Part shown: in pieces, positions 549 through 6,124 of the stretch
Position numbering within the stretch: the stretch's first letter is position 1
Layout: the number at the start of each line of letters is the position of its first letter
Source: Comamonas testosteroni
GTDB lineage: Bacteria; Pseudomonadota; Gammaproteobacteria; Burkholderiales; Burkholderiaceae_C
Reading direction: 5' to 3'
Length of the DNA stretch: 64,000 nucleotides
NCBI RefSeq assembly: GCF_014076415.1
Contig: NZ_CP043568.1
Coordinates: 4,526,001-4,590,000 of the forward strand
The notes under the pieces: generated by a model
The model's database searches: none
Told to the model about the DNA's origin: nothing
The model's input: the letters and a program-made list of their open reading frames with translations, nothing else
Made by a program: the position numbers and the translations under genes

Positions 549-1316
549 TCAAATAATTCCTATCAGGATTGCACATCTGACGGCTTGCGCTCTGGTTCTT
601 ACTTGCATTTTTCCGTAAATATTTTTTATATGCGTTGACACAGTCAAAGGGCTTATTTGCAAGGAGGAAGCAACCTCGAGAGAGCTCTTCCCTTGAGCTA
701 TCAACTTCAATATTTCCACCTCTCTTTCAGTCAGCGACTCAAAGCTCTTGTTTTTGAAGGTACTTTCCTCATGCAAATTGGCTTTGAATATTTTCGGAAT
801 GATTTTCTTCGCCACTACTGGAGATATAGCCGCTCCACCATTGGCCACTTCCAGCACCGCTTGCGAGTAACTTCCAAACCATGAGTTTTTCACCAGGTAT
901 CCAACAGCGCCTCTTTTAAGAGCATTCATTGCCGCATCATCGTTTTCACTTGCAGAAATTGCAATGCTCAGCACGTCGGGCCTCTTTAGTTGGATCGATT
1001 CCAGTAACTCTGTTCCTTGGCCTTCACCAATAGATAGGTCAATGAGGAGCACATCGAACTCTTGCAAAAAGACGTTCTTACGAGCCTCTCTGTAGCTGCA
1101 GGCCTGCCCGACCAGAAGAGTGCGCGGGTCACGCATGAGCTCCTGCGAGATCACATTGCTGACATGGCTGTCTTCGTCAACCAGAAAGACCTGCACGGGC
1201 TGGTTCTGCTGCCCCTTCATGTCGGACGGCCACATGCGCCCAGAGACTGTAGATGTGACTTCTGCACTTGCTGCATCATCAAACCGTGAGTTCATAAATG
1301 CGTCGGATAGATACAT
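549..1316 (-). CDS. LuxR/NarL-type response regulator, orphan
   Basis: Predicted two-component response regulator of 255 residues. A receiver domain covers roughly residues 41-160, with acidic pocket D47/D49, phospho-acceptor D93 (context LLIDLS), a Ser at the Thr/Ser switch position near 121-123 and the conserved Lys K143. A LuxR-type helix-turn-helix follows at about 193-250 (LTEREVEILKLIAQGKS, then the recognition helix with TVSTHIKNIYGK). I chose ATG 1316 because GGAG lies 6 bases upstream; the frame stays open to 1391. A 30-residue Ser/Ala-rich tail precedes the receiver. No histidine kinase is nearby. The gene is divergent from the exported-protein cassette beginning at 1835, so control of that cassette is a reasonable inference. 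Its base composition is more AT-rich than the rest of the window. Confidence 0.9.
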   Translation of the reverse strand: MYLSDAFMNSRFDDAASAEVTSTVSGRMWPSDMKGQQNQPVQVFLVDEDSHVSNVISQELMRDPRTLLVGQACSYREARKNVFLQEFDVLLIDLSIGEGQGTELLESIQLKRPDVLSIAISASENDDAAMNALKRGAVGYLVKNSWFGSYSQAVLEVANGGAAISPVVAKKIIPKIFKANLHEESTFKNKSFESLTEREVEILKLIAQGKSSLEVASSLQISPLTVSTHIKNIYGKMQVRTRAQAVRCAILIGII

Positions 1317-1834
1317 GTGACACTCCATTTGATGAGTCGATTGCCTAGGAATCTCGCGAAAAATAGAATTCGTCTCATTGAAAATCCACAAAAAACAAAT
1401 AAAGAAAAATAAGGTTCAGATTTTTACAAATTAATACTGGAATACAAGGTATTAAGCTGTTTTCATCAGAAAATAGATGTAAACCCTTTATTTTTGAAAC
1501 AATGGATAGATGAAATAAAAAGAAATATAGATTACATTTTTTAGCATTGTAAGAATTTTCCAACAAGCACTATTATTTCAATAGCACATCACCCACAAAC
1601 CACAACAAATCAATCATTTTTTTCATCATTTTTAATTCTTCAAAAAACATCTTTGAATGGGGGATTACTGTTTCCCCGTCGTTTTCTGAAACTGCCTTCA
1701 CCGAAAGCAGTTTTGGAACGTAACAAAGCACTCCAGAACTTGTTGACGGTTAACACTGGCCTTTGCGAAATTGCATAGGTCTCTCGCTCACACACTCTCA
1801 GTTTTCTGAGAACTCGCTATTCAAAGGAATGATC
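1317..1834. promoter_or_regulatory. AT-rich divergent regulatory region
   Basis: About 520 bases between the divergent response-regulator gene and the exported-protein cassette. From 1380 to 1680 the sequence is strikingly AT-rich (well under one-third G+C by eye) against a window that is otherwise around 60% or more. Near its cassette-proximal end is an 11-bp inverted repeat with a 3-base loop and one mismatch (arms 1689-1699 AAACTGCCTTC and 1703-1713 GAAAGCAGTTT). A TTGACG hexamer at 1743-1748 lies in a short imperfect palindrome (TGTTGACGGTTAACA). These are candidate regulator or promoter sites; no convincing -10/-35 pair could be fixed. AT-richness of this kind is typical of acquired DNA silenced by H-NS-like proteins; that link is inference. 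Confidence 0.5.
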
Positions 1835-2518
1835 ATGAAAAAGTCTCTGATTGCCATGGCGGTTATTGCGTTGGCTGGTGTTGCATCTGCTGCCGTGAGC
1901 AGCTCAAGCATTGCAGCCACAAACACGACGTCGAGCGCATCGTCTGCCACGCTGTCGGGAGCTGCCAGCTCGGGCAACGGAAGTGCGCTGAGCATGAATA
2001 GTGCAACCTCCGGTGCAACGTCGAATGCAAACGCTGCTGGAGGTGCGATCGGCGCAGGCGGTTTTGGCATCGGTGGGGCAGCTGTCGACGGTAGCGCAAC
2101 TACTTTTGGTAATGTGAAGAGCCTTTCCGCAACCACCGGCAACGGTGTTGCTGGCGGCGTAGCGGCTACCAATGCCAATGCGGGCTCGGCTGCTGCTGCC
2201 GGCTATAACGCAGGACCCGTCAACGGTACTGCGTTCGGCGGCGCCTCTTCTCAGACCGCGAATGTTGCTGCAACTGGCGCAGGCCCTGGCGGCGGCTTGG
2301 CCTACGTCAACAACAATGCTGGCACCACCTCCGGCTACAACGCCACATCGGGAGCCATTTCCTCACCTTGGGGCTCGTTGACCAACACCACATCGAACGC
2401 AGGCTCTGTGGGTACCGTCCACCAAAATGCCGGCTCCTGGGGTAACGCGGGCTACTTCTCCAACGGTGGCGGCACCTCCGGTACTGCTGGTGCAGGCTCT
2501 ACTGCCAATGCCAACTAA
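1835..2518 (+). CDS. Exported Gly/Ala/Ser/Asn-rich low-complexity protein
   Basis: A 227-residue protein with a clear Sec signal peptide (MKKSLIAMAVIALAGVASA, cleavage near residue 19). The mature chain consists almost entirely of Gly, Ala, Ser, Thr and Asn, with very few charged residues, no Cys, and aromatic residues mostly in the C-terminal half. Short degenerate repeats such as NANAG, GAGG and TTSNAG recur. ATG 1835 is preceded by AAAGGA at a good distance; an upstream in-frame ATG at 1829 is less well placed. This composition is seen in fibre-forming, amyloid-like or glycine-rich matrix proteins, but I recognise no family. It heads a same-strand cassette with 2595 and 3366, both also exported, and is divergent from a LuxR-type regulator, an arrangement reminiscent of csgD with curli genes. 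An extracellular structural role is inference. Confidence 0.75.
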   Translation: MKKSLIAMAVIALAGVASAAVSSSSIAATNTTSSASSATLSGAASSGNGSALSMNSATSGATSNANAAGGAIGAGGFGIGGAAVDGSATTFGNVKSLSATTGNGVAGGVAATNANAGSAAAAGYNAGPVNGTAFGGASSQTANVAATGAGPGGGLAYVNNNAGTTSGYNATSGAISSPWGSLTNTTSNAGSVGTVHQNAGSWGNAGYFSNGGGTSGTAGAGSTANAN

Positions 2519-2594
2519 GGCAGCTGTCCCAAGATAGTTGTGTTTGTCCCGGGCCTGGCTGCCTGGCCGGGCTCGGGCAACGTAGGAGCAAAGC

Positions 2595-3335
2595 ATGAAA
2601 TTCTCAATAGCTCTGTTAAGTCTTTGCGTTCCTTTGTGCAGTTATGCGCAAAATGCCGACAGCAGCGCGCAAAGCTCCTCTAGCTCCTCTTCCGTGGGGG
2701 CGCAACAGAATCAGTCGGTCACCATTGTCAATCCGGTCGTTGCCCCGGCGGAAAGTCGATCTGTATCCACGATGGACAGCAGATCCACTTCAACCTCCGA
2801 TCAAAACATAACAACGAACGGCACGACCACCCAGAACCTGAACAGCACTGTGTCCGGAACGTCCAAGAACATTGTGGAGTACACAGGCACTTACACCATG
2901 AAGAACGTTCCCAGCGTGAACGGCCCCAACCTCACGACCAGCAACGACACCTGCATGGGTAGCAGCAGCGGCAGTGCCAACGGCCCTGGCTTTGGCGTGA
3001 GCTTCGGCACAACCTGGACGGACGAGCATTGCAAACGCCTGAAAATGAGCCGTGAGCTCTGGAACAAGGGCATGAAGGCAGCCTCGCTGGCTATGGACTG
3101 CATGGATCCTGCCGCTCGCGTGGCACTGGAGATCACGGGTTCGAAGTGCCCACAATCCATGACCGTAGAAGAGCGGCGCAACAACTACGGGCCGGATGCT
3201 TCGGCACAAGGTAGCCCCACGCCCGCTTCAGTCCCCGCAGAGGTTCAGTCAAGTTTGGCACCTGAAGTCACTCGCCCCTCGCTTGTAACATCTGTGATGG
3301 AAGATCCACGTACAGCACAGCTGTACGACAATTAG
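2595..3335 (+). CDS. Exported Ser/Thr-rich protein with four-cysteine domain
   Basis: A 246-residue protein with a signal peptide (residues 1-18, ending CSYA). A Ser/Thr/Gln/Asn-rich low-complexity region follows (about 20-95), then a compact domain at about 97-187 with four cysteines: C120, C146, C169 and C185. Its core reads NDTCMGSSSG ... GFGVSFGTTW ... C-x(22)-C and it ends in SKCP. A Pro/Ser-rich tail closes the chain. AGGAG lies 6 bases before the ATG. The gene follows the Gly/Ala-rich protein by 76 bases and precedes a third exported protein by 30 bases, so the three are probably co-transcribed. I cannot name the family. The cysteine pattern suggests a disulphide-stabilised periplasmic or surface domain, perhaps an assembly or nucleator partner of the upstream protein; this is inference. 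Confidence 0.75.
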   Translation: MKFSIALLSLCVPLCSYAQNADSSAQSSSSSSSVGAQQNQSVTIVNPVVAPAESRSVSTMDSRSTSTSDQNITTNGTTTQNLNSTVSGTSKNIVEYTGTYTMKNVPSVNGPNLTTSNDTCMGSSSGSANGPGFGVSFGTTWTDEHCKRLKMSRELWNKGMKAASLAMDCMDPAARVALEITGSKCPQSMTVEERRNNYGPDASAQGSPTPASVPAEVQSSLAPEVTRPSLVTSVMEDPRTAQLYDN

Positions 3336-3365
3336 TGGGCGTGATTCCTAATCTAGGAGGCCGCG

Positions 3366-3698
3366 ATGGGCAAGACTCTAGCTCTTTTAGCGATTGCACT
3401 ATGCTGCGCTTCGTCTTTGGCTGCACCCGACTCCAGGGCCATCAATGAACCGTTGAGCATTCAACGCCAGATCTTCGGAAGTGGCGAGCAAGGTGCAGCA
3501 GGCTCGCAGCAAGCAGAGCCAGTAGGTGACTATGGGGTATGGCATGTGCCGCAGTACCTGCCTGGTTACCCTACTGCAGCAACTATCTGGCCCCGCGCCA
3601 TACCTGTGAAATGCAAGGACAGGCAATGCGAAGGCTATGTGATTACCCCGCAGATGGGGCCAGGTGAGTACCTGTTTTTCGTGCCTACAAGCGAATAG
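3366..3698 (+). CDS. Small exported protein, third gene of the cassette
   Basis: A 110-residue protein beginning with a signal peptide (MGKTLALLAIALCCASSLAA). The mature part is about 90 residues with a conserved-looking C-terminal half: GVWHVPQYLPGYPTAATIWP, a close cysteine pair (VKCKDRQCEGY) and an aromatic end (GEYLFFVP). AGGAGG sits directly upstream, the strongest ribosome-binding site in the cassette. No known domain is recognised. Two tandem hairpins follow the stop codon, which marks this as the last gene of the unit. Its size, export signal and position suggest an accessory or chaperone-like role for the two upstream products, but this is only inference from context. Confidence 0.7.
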   Translation: MGKTLALLAIALCCASSLAAPDSRAINEPLSIQRQIFGSGEQGAAGSQQAEPVGDYGVWHVPQYLPGYPTAATIWPRAIPVKCKDRQCEGYVITPQMGPGEYLFFVPTSE

Positions 3699-3723: not shown

Positions 3724-3786
3724 CAGCACCCCATTGGTGCTGACAGCAACTCACCTAACAAGGGCGGGCTTCAACCCGCCCTTGTT
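3724..3786 (+). terminator. Tandem hairpins ending the exported-protein cassette
   Basis: Two perfect stem-loops follow the third cassette gene. The first has arms 3724-3730 (CAGCACC) and 3736-3742 (GGTGCTG). The second is a 12-bp perfect stem with a 6-base loop, arms 3757-3768 (AACAAGGGCGGG) and 3775-3786 (CCCGCCCTTGTT). There is no long T tract after the second stem, so termination may be partial or work from either direction. Confidence 0.65.
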
Positions 3787-4582
3787 GATTGGTGCTCTGC
3801 AAATATGCTGCCACTCAGCACCGATAGCGACACCAGAAAAGTATCTGCCGATAAAGCGACTTAGCCTCGCCCCCCATGTCGACATCATGGGCGCAACGCG
3901 TTTTTGTCCAAAGGAACGCCACGACAATTTTTTGCGCCTAAATATCGAATACAATCCGCATCCCTCCAGGGCGAGTGCTGGGAATTGAAATCCCGCAGCA
4001 GGGCGTTCCGGTCCAATCCGGCACGACATACCCAAGCCGAGAAGGCAGCCTCGCGCCATCCAGCCTTCCGTTCTCCACGCGAAAAGCCGGCGAATCAATG
4101 ACGCCACAGCCGCATGCCTTTCCCTTGCCGGGGTAAGGCAGGATCTCTCTTGCTCGCTCATCTTTTCGAAGTTGCACAGTCACTGTGCATAACTTTGCAT
4201 AATCTGGTGCAGACCTATATCTTGCAATGCCATGCTCAGCACCGACAGCATCACCCATCTGGCAAACATCCATTCGCTTCCAGCCTTTAGCACATAGCAG
4301 GTCACCAGGTTCATTTCTCTCTGAAAAATGCTTTTTGAGCATCGCTGCGCCAGTACTGTCAACGAGATCCTTTGCTGTCAATCCGAGCAACCCTGGCTTG
4401 AGTCAAGCCACAAAAAAAGCGCTGTCCATGGCAGCGCTTTTTTCCACAGATCATGTGGACATGATTGTGGATATCCGGTGAAATCCTGGTGATAACAGCA
4501 CACAAGCCCTTGTACTTGCGGGTTGAAAGGTAGGTTGCCTCCAAATCAGGCAATTGCAAATCAAGGGTTAACCCCGGGCATT
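3787..4582. other. Gap without a confident gene, containing one terminator
   Basis: About 800 bases in which neither strand gives a gene I can support. A minus-strand frame at 3938-4390 (150 codons) has no recognisable motif and no good ribosome-binding site; it may be a decayed gene. The only clear structure is the hairpin at 4412-4443. No transposase, integrase, tRNA or repeat unit was identified, although the position beside the AT-rich accessory segment fits a boundary of acquired DNA. Confidence 0.4.
4412..4443. terminator. Bidirectional intrinsic terminator
   Basis: Seven A residues followed by GCGCTG (arm 4412-4424), a 7-base loop, then CAGCGC followed by six T residues (4432-4443). 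The stem carries A-rich and T-rich flanks on both sides and should terminate transcription from either strand. On the minus strand it lies about 140 bases beyond the stop of the small gene at 4583-4801. Confidence 0.8.
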
Positions 4583-4997: not shown

Positions 4998-5387
4998 ATG
5001 CTGTATGCGCTTGCTGTACTTTTCGCCTTTCAGCTACTGGGAGAGTTCCTGGCCCGCGTCACGGGCCTACCCCTGCCCGGTGCGCTGATCGGCATCCTGC
5101 TTTTGCTGCTGGGTCTGCTGTTTTACAAACGCCTACCCAAGACACTGGAAGATACTGCCCAGGTTCTGTTGCAGAACATGATGCTGCTTTTCATCCCCGT
5201 CATTGCGGGAGTGATGCTGGAATTCGACCACCTGCGCCGCGAATGGCTGCCGTTTGTGCTGGCCTGCATTGCCGGAGCTGCCATCACATTCACCGCAACC
5301 GCCCTCACCTTCCGCTTCTGCCTGCAGCGCCAGCGCACTCGCAAGCCGGATGACGATTCCGCCGCAAAGCAGGAGCCCGGCGCATGA
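4998..5387 (+). CDS. CidA/LrgA family membrane protein
   Basis: A 129-residue integral membrane protein with about four hydrophobic segments (roughly residues 5-25, 30-48, 60-80 and 88-112) and a charged C-terminus. The TGLPLPGALIGILLLLLGLLFYK segment near residues 18-40 and the later MMLLFIPVIAGVM are typical of the CidA/LrgA (holin-like) family. The stop overlaps the start of the LrgB gene by four bases (ATGA at 5384-5387), so the two are translationally coupled. In characterised bacteria such pairs influence murein hydrolase activity, autolysis, or export of pyruvate/glycolate-like acids; which applies here cannot be read from the sequence. Confidence 0.9.
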   Translation: MLYALAVLFAFQLLGEFLARVTGLPLPGALIGILLLLLGLLFYKRLPKTLEDTAQVLLQNMMLLFIPVIAGVMLEFDHLRREWLPFVLACIAGAAITFTATALTFRFCLQRQRTRKPDDDSAAKQEPGA

Positions 5388-6124
5388 GCACACCTTTGCT
5401 TGAACGCCTGCACACCGCCTGGCTGAGCCTGGCCGAAGGCTCGCCCCTGCCCTGGCTGGTGCTGACCATGCTGGTCTATATGGCGGCCATGGCCATCTAC
5501 CGAAAAAGCGGCAACCGCCCCATGCTGATTCCGGTGTTTACCGGCGTGGTCGTCATCGTCGCGATTCTGTTGCTCACGGGCACGCCTTATGAAACCTATC
5601 GAAACGGCGTATCCCTGCTGGGTCTGATGATAGGCCCGGCCACCGTGGCCCTGGCGATCCCGCTGTACGCCCAGCGCGAGCGCATCAGTCAGCTGTGGTT
5701 GCCCATCAGTGTCGCGTTGCTGGTGGGCTGTCTGGTCGCTCTTTTTTCAGCGCTGGGCATTGCCTGGGCCTTTGGCGGCTCGCAAGCTACGCTGATCGCC
5801 GTGGCGCCCAAGTCGGCCACCATTCCCATCGCCCTGCCCATGGCCGAGCGCTTTGGCGGAACACCCTCGCTGGCCGCCGTGGCCGTGGCCATTACCGGCA
5901 TCAGCGGCACCATGATGGCACCGCTGCTGTGCCGCGTCCTGCGTCTCAAGGATCCAGCGGTTCAGGGCTTTGCCATCGGACTTACGGCCCATGCGATTGG
6001 CACGGCACGCGCCATTCAGCTCAACCCCACGGCCGCAGCATTCTCCGCTTTGGCCATGGGCTTGAACGGCGTGGCAACGGCTGTACTGATGCCACTGGTG
6101 CTGGCGATTACCCCTTGGATCTAA
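5384..6124 (+). CDS. LrgB family protein
   Basis: A 246-residue hydrophobic protein with several membrane segments and the hallmark LrgB features GPATVALAIPLY (near residues 84-95), APKSATIPIALPMAERFGG in the middle and AITGISGTMMAPLL. The C-terminal part AIGTARAIQLNPTAAAFSALAMGLNG is also typical. It overlaps the CidA/LrgA gene by four bases and the pair is expected to work together in the inner membrane. A 14-bp perfect hairpin immediately after the stop ends the unit. No LysR-type CidR or two-component LytSR regulator lies directly beside it, so its control is unclear. Confidence 0.92.
   Translation: MSTPLLERLHTAWLSLAEGSPLPWLVLTMLVYMAAMAIYRKSGNRPMLIPVFTGVVVIVAILLLTGTPYETYRNGVSLLGLMIGPATVALAIPLYAQRERISQLWLPISVALLVGCLVALFSALGIAWAFGGSQATLIAVAPKSATIPIALPMAERFGGTPSLAAVAVAITGISGTMMAPLLCRVLRLKDPAVQGFAIGLTAHAIGTARAIQLNPTAAAFSALAMGLNGVATAVLMPLVLAITPWI

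Follow-up and report, generated by a model that had tools for sequence, protein, structure and literature searches.

We analysed a 64,000-nucleotide stretch of the 5.95-Mb Comamonas testosteroni genome (G000:C1:4526001-4590000, hereafter the window), near the start of which three consecutive genes, A, B and C, lie divergently from a gene for a LuxR-type response regulator (Table 1). The initial annotation had read A, B and C as a unit encoding three exported proteins, and our analysis upholds this reading: the three frames and that of the divergent regulator are real, and the grouping is not due to chance, because the 34 genome loci recovered from a scan of a one-genome-per-species collection keep the frames, their order and their sequence and because B and C also occur on 27 metagenomic viral contigs. 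Signal peptides and Shine-Dalgarno sequences were judged by eye and not by a signal-peptide program; the signal peptides point to export of all three products. The cassette belongs to no characterised family; scans of A, B and C against Pfam and NCBIfam returned no family above cut-off and no match to a characterised system, and among the papers listed by searches of the open literature none showed, in its title or abstract opening, work on the A-B-C cassette.

Table 1. Features of the cassette and its surroundings (positions in the window)
Feature	Position	Strand	Remark
Response regulator, NarL/FixJ-type, 255 amino acids from ATG	549..1316	-	Receiver D93; divergent from A
Candidate promoter/operator block in the divergent region	1682..1756	+	By-eye alignment of seven copies
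Gene A, exported Gly/Ala/Ser/Thr/Asn protein, 227 amino acids	1835..2518	+	Long beta strands predicted; proposed major subunit
Pair of neighbouring RNA hairpins in the A-B gap	2520..2580 (2520-2541, 2544-2580)	+	
Gene B, exported, 246 amino acids	2595..3335	+	Ser/Thr-rich stem and conserved four-Cys domain
B core domain, residues 94-190	2874..3164	+	Stretch found in phages too
Gene C, small exported protein, 110 amino acids	3366..3698	+	VWHVPQYLPGYPTAATIWPR motif; Cys83/Cys88
Tandem hairpins after C	3724..3787	+	Possible operon end, without T-run

Proteins of the cassette

Protein A has the nearly uncharged Gly/Ala/Ser/Asn/Thr composition that had been noticed at first sight, as these five residues make up 82% of positions 26-227 and the protein holds, from residue 21 onwards, a single Asp, a single Lys, a single His and neither Glu nor Arg. 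That A might be a misread of another frame can be rejected, since it aligns with all 21 relatives (at 43-97% with 19 of them, at 28% in Polaromonas and at 31% in Ramlibacter) and is conserved across the genome loci. In aligned A proteins conservation alternates residue by residue: the lag-2 correlation of column entropy is 0.52, a value that none of 5000 shuffles reaches, compared to 0.12 in the B core used as control (reached by 546 of 5000 shuffles). The A proteins of the phages described below, aligned separately (15 of 20 used, five dropped), show the same alternation, with a lag-2 correlation of 0.33 that is reached in 0 of 3000 shuffles. AlphaFold predicts long beta strands for A (predicted local distance difference test, pLDDT, 83; predicted template modelling score, pTM, 0.72). 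The conserved positions switch parity near residues 76, 128, 152, 182 and 212, and four of these five flips coincide with breaks between the modelled strands, the one at 152 falling inside one long run; strand limits were set by hand from the model, with a division at 151/154 placed in the 49-residue run E129-177. With alternating conservation and predicted long strands A is not disordered filler, and the structural character that the initial annotation assigned to it is thereby supported, whereas the function proposed along with it, in a fibre, surface layer or biofilm matrix, is something that we infer. Structural comparison of the model by Foldseek and VIA-align retrieved hairpins of pore proteins together with unrelated beta proteins, an outcome that neither gives nor excludes a known fold, and a profile search with A, which gave 25 hits from 7993 scored candidates, was dominated by low-complexity words.

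The Ser/Thr-rich stem and four-Cys domain described for B are both present, with 41% Ser/Thr over residues 20-100 and four Cys after the signal peptide (Cys120, Cys146, Cys169 and Cys185) that are invariant in 53 rows and belong to the 50 invariant columns of that alignment. Protein C is likewise the small Cys-pair protein first described, with Cys83 and Cys88 among 28 invariant positions in 19 rows. We found 471 relatives of B; among the 120 listed, none carries a precomputed Pfam domain and those with names are called hypothetical or uncharacterized, and a sequence search of the PDB with B gave no match. Residues 19-195 of B match phrog_20531, a phage family of unknown function (E 5.6e-15).

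Distribution, copies and control in bacteria

The 34 loci span Comamonas, Variovorax, Polaromonas, Ramlibacter and Xenophilus, and the co-occurrence of A, B and C as a unit that the initial annotation had wished to see checked in other Comamonadaceae holds across them: all 34 have A, 27 have C, 25 have the divergent regulator and 21 have a sensor kinase behind it. Where C is missing, the contig ends within 120 bases after B in four of the seven loci, and in the other three (L020, L022 and L050) C is absent behind B, the B match of L050 itself being split over frames. As a rule, then, the genes do not occur independently of one another; among 250 genomes of the family B was found in seven and C in six, all six among those seven, and the seventh (G079) carries only a distant B (36%). 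Within the genus 15 of 53 genomes hold B, as do 33 of the 101 genomes from the genus to which G122 belongs (Variovorax, judged by its sequences), which suggests a cassette that is patchy in its distribution yet coherent as a unit. The locus L018 of C. testosteroni ATCC 11996 encodes an A protein 98% identical to that of the window and by eye shares the genes downstream. Two overlapping open reading frames (ORFs) at 4998-6124 of the window resemble, again by eye, a CidA/LrgA-LrgB pair.

The initial picture of a single cassette has to be amended, since the same genome carries two further complete cassettes, L007 at ~2.56 Mb and L008 at ~2.12 Mb, and an A-B pair without C or regulator, L009 at 2.75 Mb; all four B genes are without stops. 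Nucleotide identities among these copies are mosaic: the regulators of L007 and L008 are 92% identical and either is 82% identical to that of the window, the A genes of the window and L007 are 94% identical and both are 78-80% identical to that of L008, whose A-B gap in turn shares 99% identity with that of the window. The simple reading of such mosaic identities is that sequence has been exchanged between copies. By eye, an endolysin-like ORF lies ~2 kb from the L008 regulator and an integrase-like ORF ~5 kb from that of the window, in the flanking locus L010. Upstream of the window, L010:11-2908 (G000:C1:4516010-4518907) also holds a reverse-transcriptase-like ORF and a pair of similar ORFs whose WSSTQYSR-like ends vary, and by eye resembles a prophage-borne diversity-generating retroelement.

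The tandem hairpins that were first noted behind C are present (3724-3742 and 3756-3787; z-score -3.35), but neither is listed by a simple terminator scan that requires a T-run. The gap between A and B holds a strong hairpin pair, not mentioned in the initial annotation, with a z-score of -3.06, and the corresponding pairs in the copies of this genome score -2.7 to -3.7. Among the gaps scored, z falls below -2 for 15 of the 34 bacterial A-B gaps and for 13 of the 17 from phages, compared to none of seven B-C gaps, which are short; this count covered 18 of the 27 phage loci with 60 shuffles each, and L009, L046 and L050 were dropped. The A-B hairpins may thus favour expression of A over that of B and C. 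A general promoter and terminator scan listed 5 and 7 sites (2.6 and 4.4 expected), none of which was used in the analysis.

The regulator carries receiver and LuxR-type helix-turn-helix domains over cut-off (PF00072, 55.5 bits; PF00196, 70.8 bits), as in NarL/FixJ systems, and the intact phospho-site first pointed out is indeed the receiver aspartate, D93 when numbered from the ATG at 1316 (a longer TTG frame extends to 1391). Its description as an orphan applies to the window and near relatives, but not generally: in relatives a sensor kinase with the motif ER[KR]RIAxxLHD, which we take to mark the class HisKA_3, adjoins the regulator, and no kinase lies beside the window copy. Since 21 of the 34 loci keep the kinase, the window regulator probably became an orphan by loss of its local partner. 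Elsewhere in the genome an intact, related regulator-kinase pair (L011:5953-7587; G000:C1:1843952-1845586) encodes a regulator 47% identical to that of the window and a kinase 42% identical to that of the C. suwonensis locus L021; the pair lies near a gene that we take to be tex-like, and a tex-like gene also stands beside the kinase in Variovorax L030. By sequence this pair is a natural candidate for the partner of the orphan regulator, and it is possibly a remnant of the ancestral locus that still serves the orphan regulators. In the 518-bp divergent region, a by-eye alignment of seven copies shows one block (Table 1) that is better conserved than most of the remainder and is kept in C. suwonensis, making it a candidate promoter/operator. 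AlpA-like and nucleoside-deoxyribosyltransferase-like ORFs lie ahead of the regulator in L010:9094-10116, L017:2922-3762 and L018:2198-3049 (by eye).

Viral relatives and gene D

In IMG/VR, B is found on 27 metagenomic viral contigs (L068-L094), with a C match behind B in all 27 and a separate low-complexity, A-like ORF before B in 20; of the seven contigs that lack a separate A, three are truncated on the upstream side. No regulator match lies within 5 kb or less on either side in any of the 27. The T4-type capsid gene gp23 is present on five of 13 viral records tested (350, 311, 257, 162 and 142 kb) and terminase_6C on two of 15, one of them over cut-off. Three of the gp23-bearing phages share a neighbourhood that by eye includes CCA-adding-enzyme-like and metallophosphatase-like genes, so that the cassette appears to be an established component of that large-phage lineage. 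Proviruses predicted in IMG/VR (L061-L067), which by their names look like those of isolates, probably of Comamonas, were left out of the phage evidence; regulator, A, B and C are all present in six of the seven, and in four the contig edge coincides with the cassette, L067 being cut inside B. A midpoint-rooted tree of B core plus C from 47 loci (30 bacterial, 17 viral; 16 of 63 B cores, 10 of them from phages, were left out as C was absent or did not match the motif) places 29 bacterial cassettes in one clade (support 0.86) and pairs the Ramlibacter cassette with viral L068 (0.98), the other phages being more diverse. These groupings support exchange of the cassette between phages and bacteria; its direction is not given by a tree rooted in this way.

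Named phages hold only distant relatives of B (JWDelta and Pelagibacter phages), with a signal-peptide-like start and a low-complexity stem plus Cys domain. The Pelagibacter-type proteins with such a start lie at L058:5809-6465, L059:2887-3486 and L060:3737-4327, each followed by an acidic ORF of ~460 amino acids, with terminase or M15 peptidase genes near in two. A PGNNGGGNGGCG stretch is common to XacN1 ORF391, the JWDelta relative and the G079 relative (L056). Collagen-like repeats are fused to the B domain at L083:111-1310, L084:4194-5414 and L091:3-839, where B contains a GDKGDKG stretch, and B of L074 has a Gly-rich stretch. The C protein of viral locus L069 matched nothing in 50,697 phage records, and in PHROG the C proteins scanned had no match and the A proteins scanned only a marginal one (0.067).

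A fourth gene, D, is present on 20 of the 27 viral contigs. D shares with the YkuD L,D-transpeptidases (PF03734) His66 and Cys95, the latter in GC[IV]N, which are presumably the catalytic residues, and differs from them by four further Cys; all six residues are invariant in 11 rows. It matches phrog_38499 (E down to 1.3e-50), which like phrog_20531 carries no function, and the XacN1 copy is annotated as an L,D-transpeptidase. In a set of 48 D-bearing viral loci that overlaps with the 27 contigs (D was misassigned in L149 and L151), 22 have B and 21 of these also C, 15 others have a low-complexity ORF upstream, and 11 have neither (three are cut off). In 46 of the 48 loci, 40 of the 168 same-strand ORFs upstream of D are of low complexity, compared to none of the 156 downstream, a count with a fixed place for D in which some later ORFs count as upstream when D lies near the locus start. 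Named Stenotrophomonas, Xanthomonas and Erwinia phages account for 11 D records, one phage appearing twice, and in the two that were read the gene before D encodes a Gly/Asn/Ser-rich protein with a signal-peptide-like start. D is paired with a Gly/Asn/Ser-rich protein at L095:3334-5345 and L096:3820-5342, from Xanthomonas and Stenotrophomonas phages. A search for D in the window's own genome brought up nothing convincing, the best match covering 28 residues at E 0.029.

A candidate surface module and its alternatives

Curli (csgBAC/csgDEFG) combine a divergent LuxR-type regulator with a short row of small exported subunit genes and a beta-rich major subunit, and the parallel to csgD/csgBAC that the initial annotation drew stands as a likeness in layout only, one that also gives no hint of the sharing with phages. 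Its statement that no protein here resembles a curli component is borne out, as A is modelled with long strands, neither B nor C falls into a Csg family of Pfam or NCBIfam, and a CsgG profile has 0 matches in the genome (control matches in four of 14 named genomes, including E. coli); we reject membership in the curli system. Curlin repeats were not seen in A, for which no Pfam family appeared at E<=1 in a search whose HMMER filters drop most weak matches, and general Pfam and NCBIfam scans of A, B and C gave nothing over cut-off for Pseudomonas Fap, no search directed at FapA-F having been made. Silk-like and collagen-like proteins recall the small-residue strands of A and the stretch fused to B in some phages, but no sequence relation to the cassette is shown.

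The reading that we favour, and to which we give about an even chance, is that the cassette is an exported structural module in which a surface structure is built from A, a beta-sheet subunit made in excess, with B and C as minor adaptors. A would be secreted in excess and would fold or assemble as long beta strands, one conserved Ala/Ser/Gly/Thr face of which could pack against another sheet; most of a sheet- or fibre-like assembly on the cell surface would then consist of A. B, with its flexible stem and disulfide domain, and C would act as minor partners that nucleate, cap or anchor A, and in phages the YkuD-like D, in the same gene row, may tie the structure to peptidoglycan. A two-component system would drive the module in Comamonadaceae, and genomes of the C. 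testosteroni type have probably lost the local kinase and gained further copies of the cassette. The unit, its copies, the regulator and kinase neighbours, the A-B hairpins, the presence on viral contigs and the alternating conservation are read from the sequences themselves; the strand architecture is a prediction, and export by signal peptides, excess of A, surface location and the roles of B, C and D are inferred. More tentatively, and as something we consider possible but would not yet bet on, T4-type large phages may build an exported beta-sheet structure in or on the envelope of the infected cell from these parts (A as major subunit, B and C as adaptors, D as transpeptidase-like anchor), the Comamonadaceae having a share in the module, placing it under a two-component switch and multiplying it as a surface structure of their own.

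Several observations weigh against the favoured structural reading. The cassette encodes no outer-membrane export channel, and CsgG is absent from the genome. AlphaFold may over-predict strands for sequences like A, the breaks at 45-49 and 102-104 of the model show no parity flip, and small-residue periodicity in single A sequences is weak (0 of 38 bacterial and three of 15 phage sequences pass), so that the alternation claim rests on alignments; the model of B is unusable (pLDDT 43). A and B occur without C and regulator in some Comamonas loci (L020, L022, L050 and the genome's own L009), and the B profile matches only two of 274 genomes of the class. As gp23 and terminase_6C mark so few of the records tested, most viral contigs rest on IMG/VR's own classing. 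Four of five D proteins score 18.9-22.0 bits against YkuD, under the curated cut-off of 23.4, and the fifth has no match; no signal peptide is seen by eye in D, which among the 34 bacterial loci is found only in Polaromonas L036, a few loci ending too early to tell. The titles and abstract openings listed by the searches of the open literature mention no expression, localisation or phenotype data for the cassette.

Among the alternatives, the module might coat the cell as a shield that blocks phage adsorption, serving phages in superinfection exclusion and bacteria as an inducible defence. We think this unlikely; it is compatible with the structural reading and would explain why both large phages and bacteria retain the cassette, why it is patchy in the two genera sampled and why it has multiplied, but two-component control suits many surface functions. 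A phage module for envelope disruption or lysis that was later domesticated, its exported proteins and peptidoglycan enzyme acting at the end of infection, would agree with a YkuD-like D and with the distant B relatives near terminase or M15 peptidase genes in Pelagibacter-type phages; we judge it quite unlikely, since three large phages have the cassette beside the CCA-adding-enzyme-like gene with no lysis or tail gene recognised by eye and since this bacterium keeps four B genes without stops. Small-residue beta proteins can serve as soluble protectants, and a periplasmic or extracellular protectant that forms no polymer, acting for example against drying, freezing or metal stress, is conceivable but very unlikely, as the A-hairpin-B-C layout, the two conserved partners and the collagen-like fusions suit assembly better. 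A membrane pore in which long A hairpins form an oligomeric beta barrel gated by B and C is in our view highly improbable. The resemblance of A to pore proteins of the MACPF/complement type lies in its hairpins only, and A has no Pfam hit; a membrane beta barrel for A is rejected because an outer-membrane barrel is expected to have one strongly hydrophobic strand face, whereas the faces of A (strand limits by hand from the model) hold 9% and 21% hydrophobic residues.

Phages are not, to our knowledge, known to encode multi-gene exported structural assemblies that are not part of the virion, and we know of no counterpart to a phage-encoded extracellular architecture of this class. The gene order kept between large phages and free-living bacteria, the hairpin in the same gap and the predicted beta subunit make the cassette a concrete, testable candidate for one. 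If the structural reading is correct, it would have implications for the remodelling of host surfaces by phages, for the way a bacterial surface structure arose and for a natural small-residue beta-sheet material.

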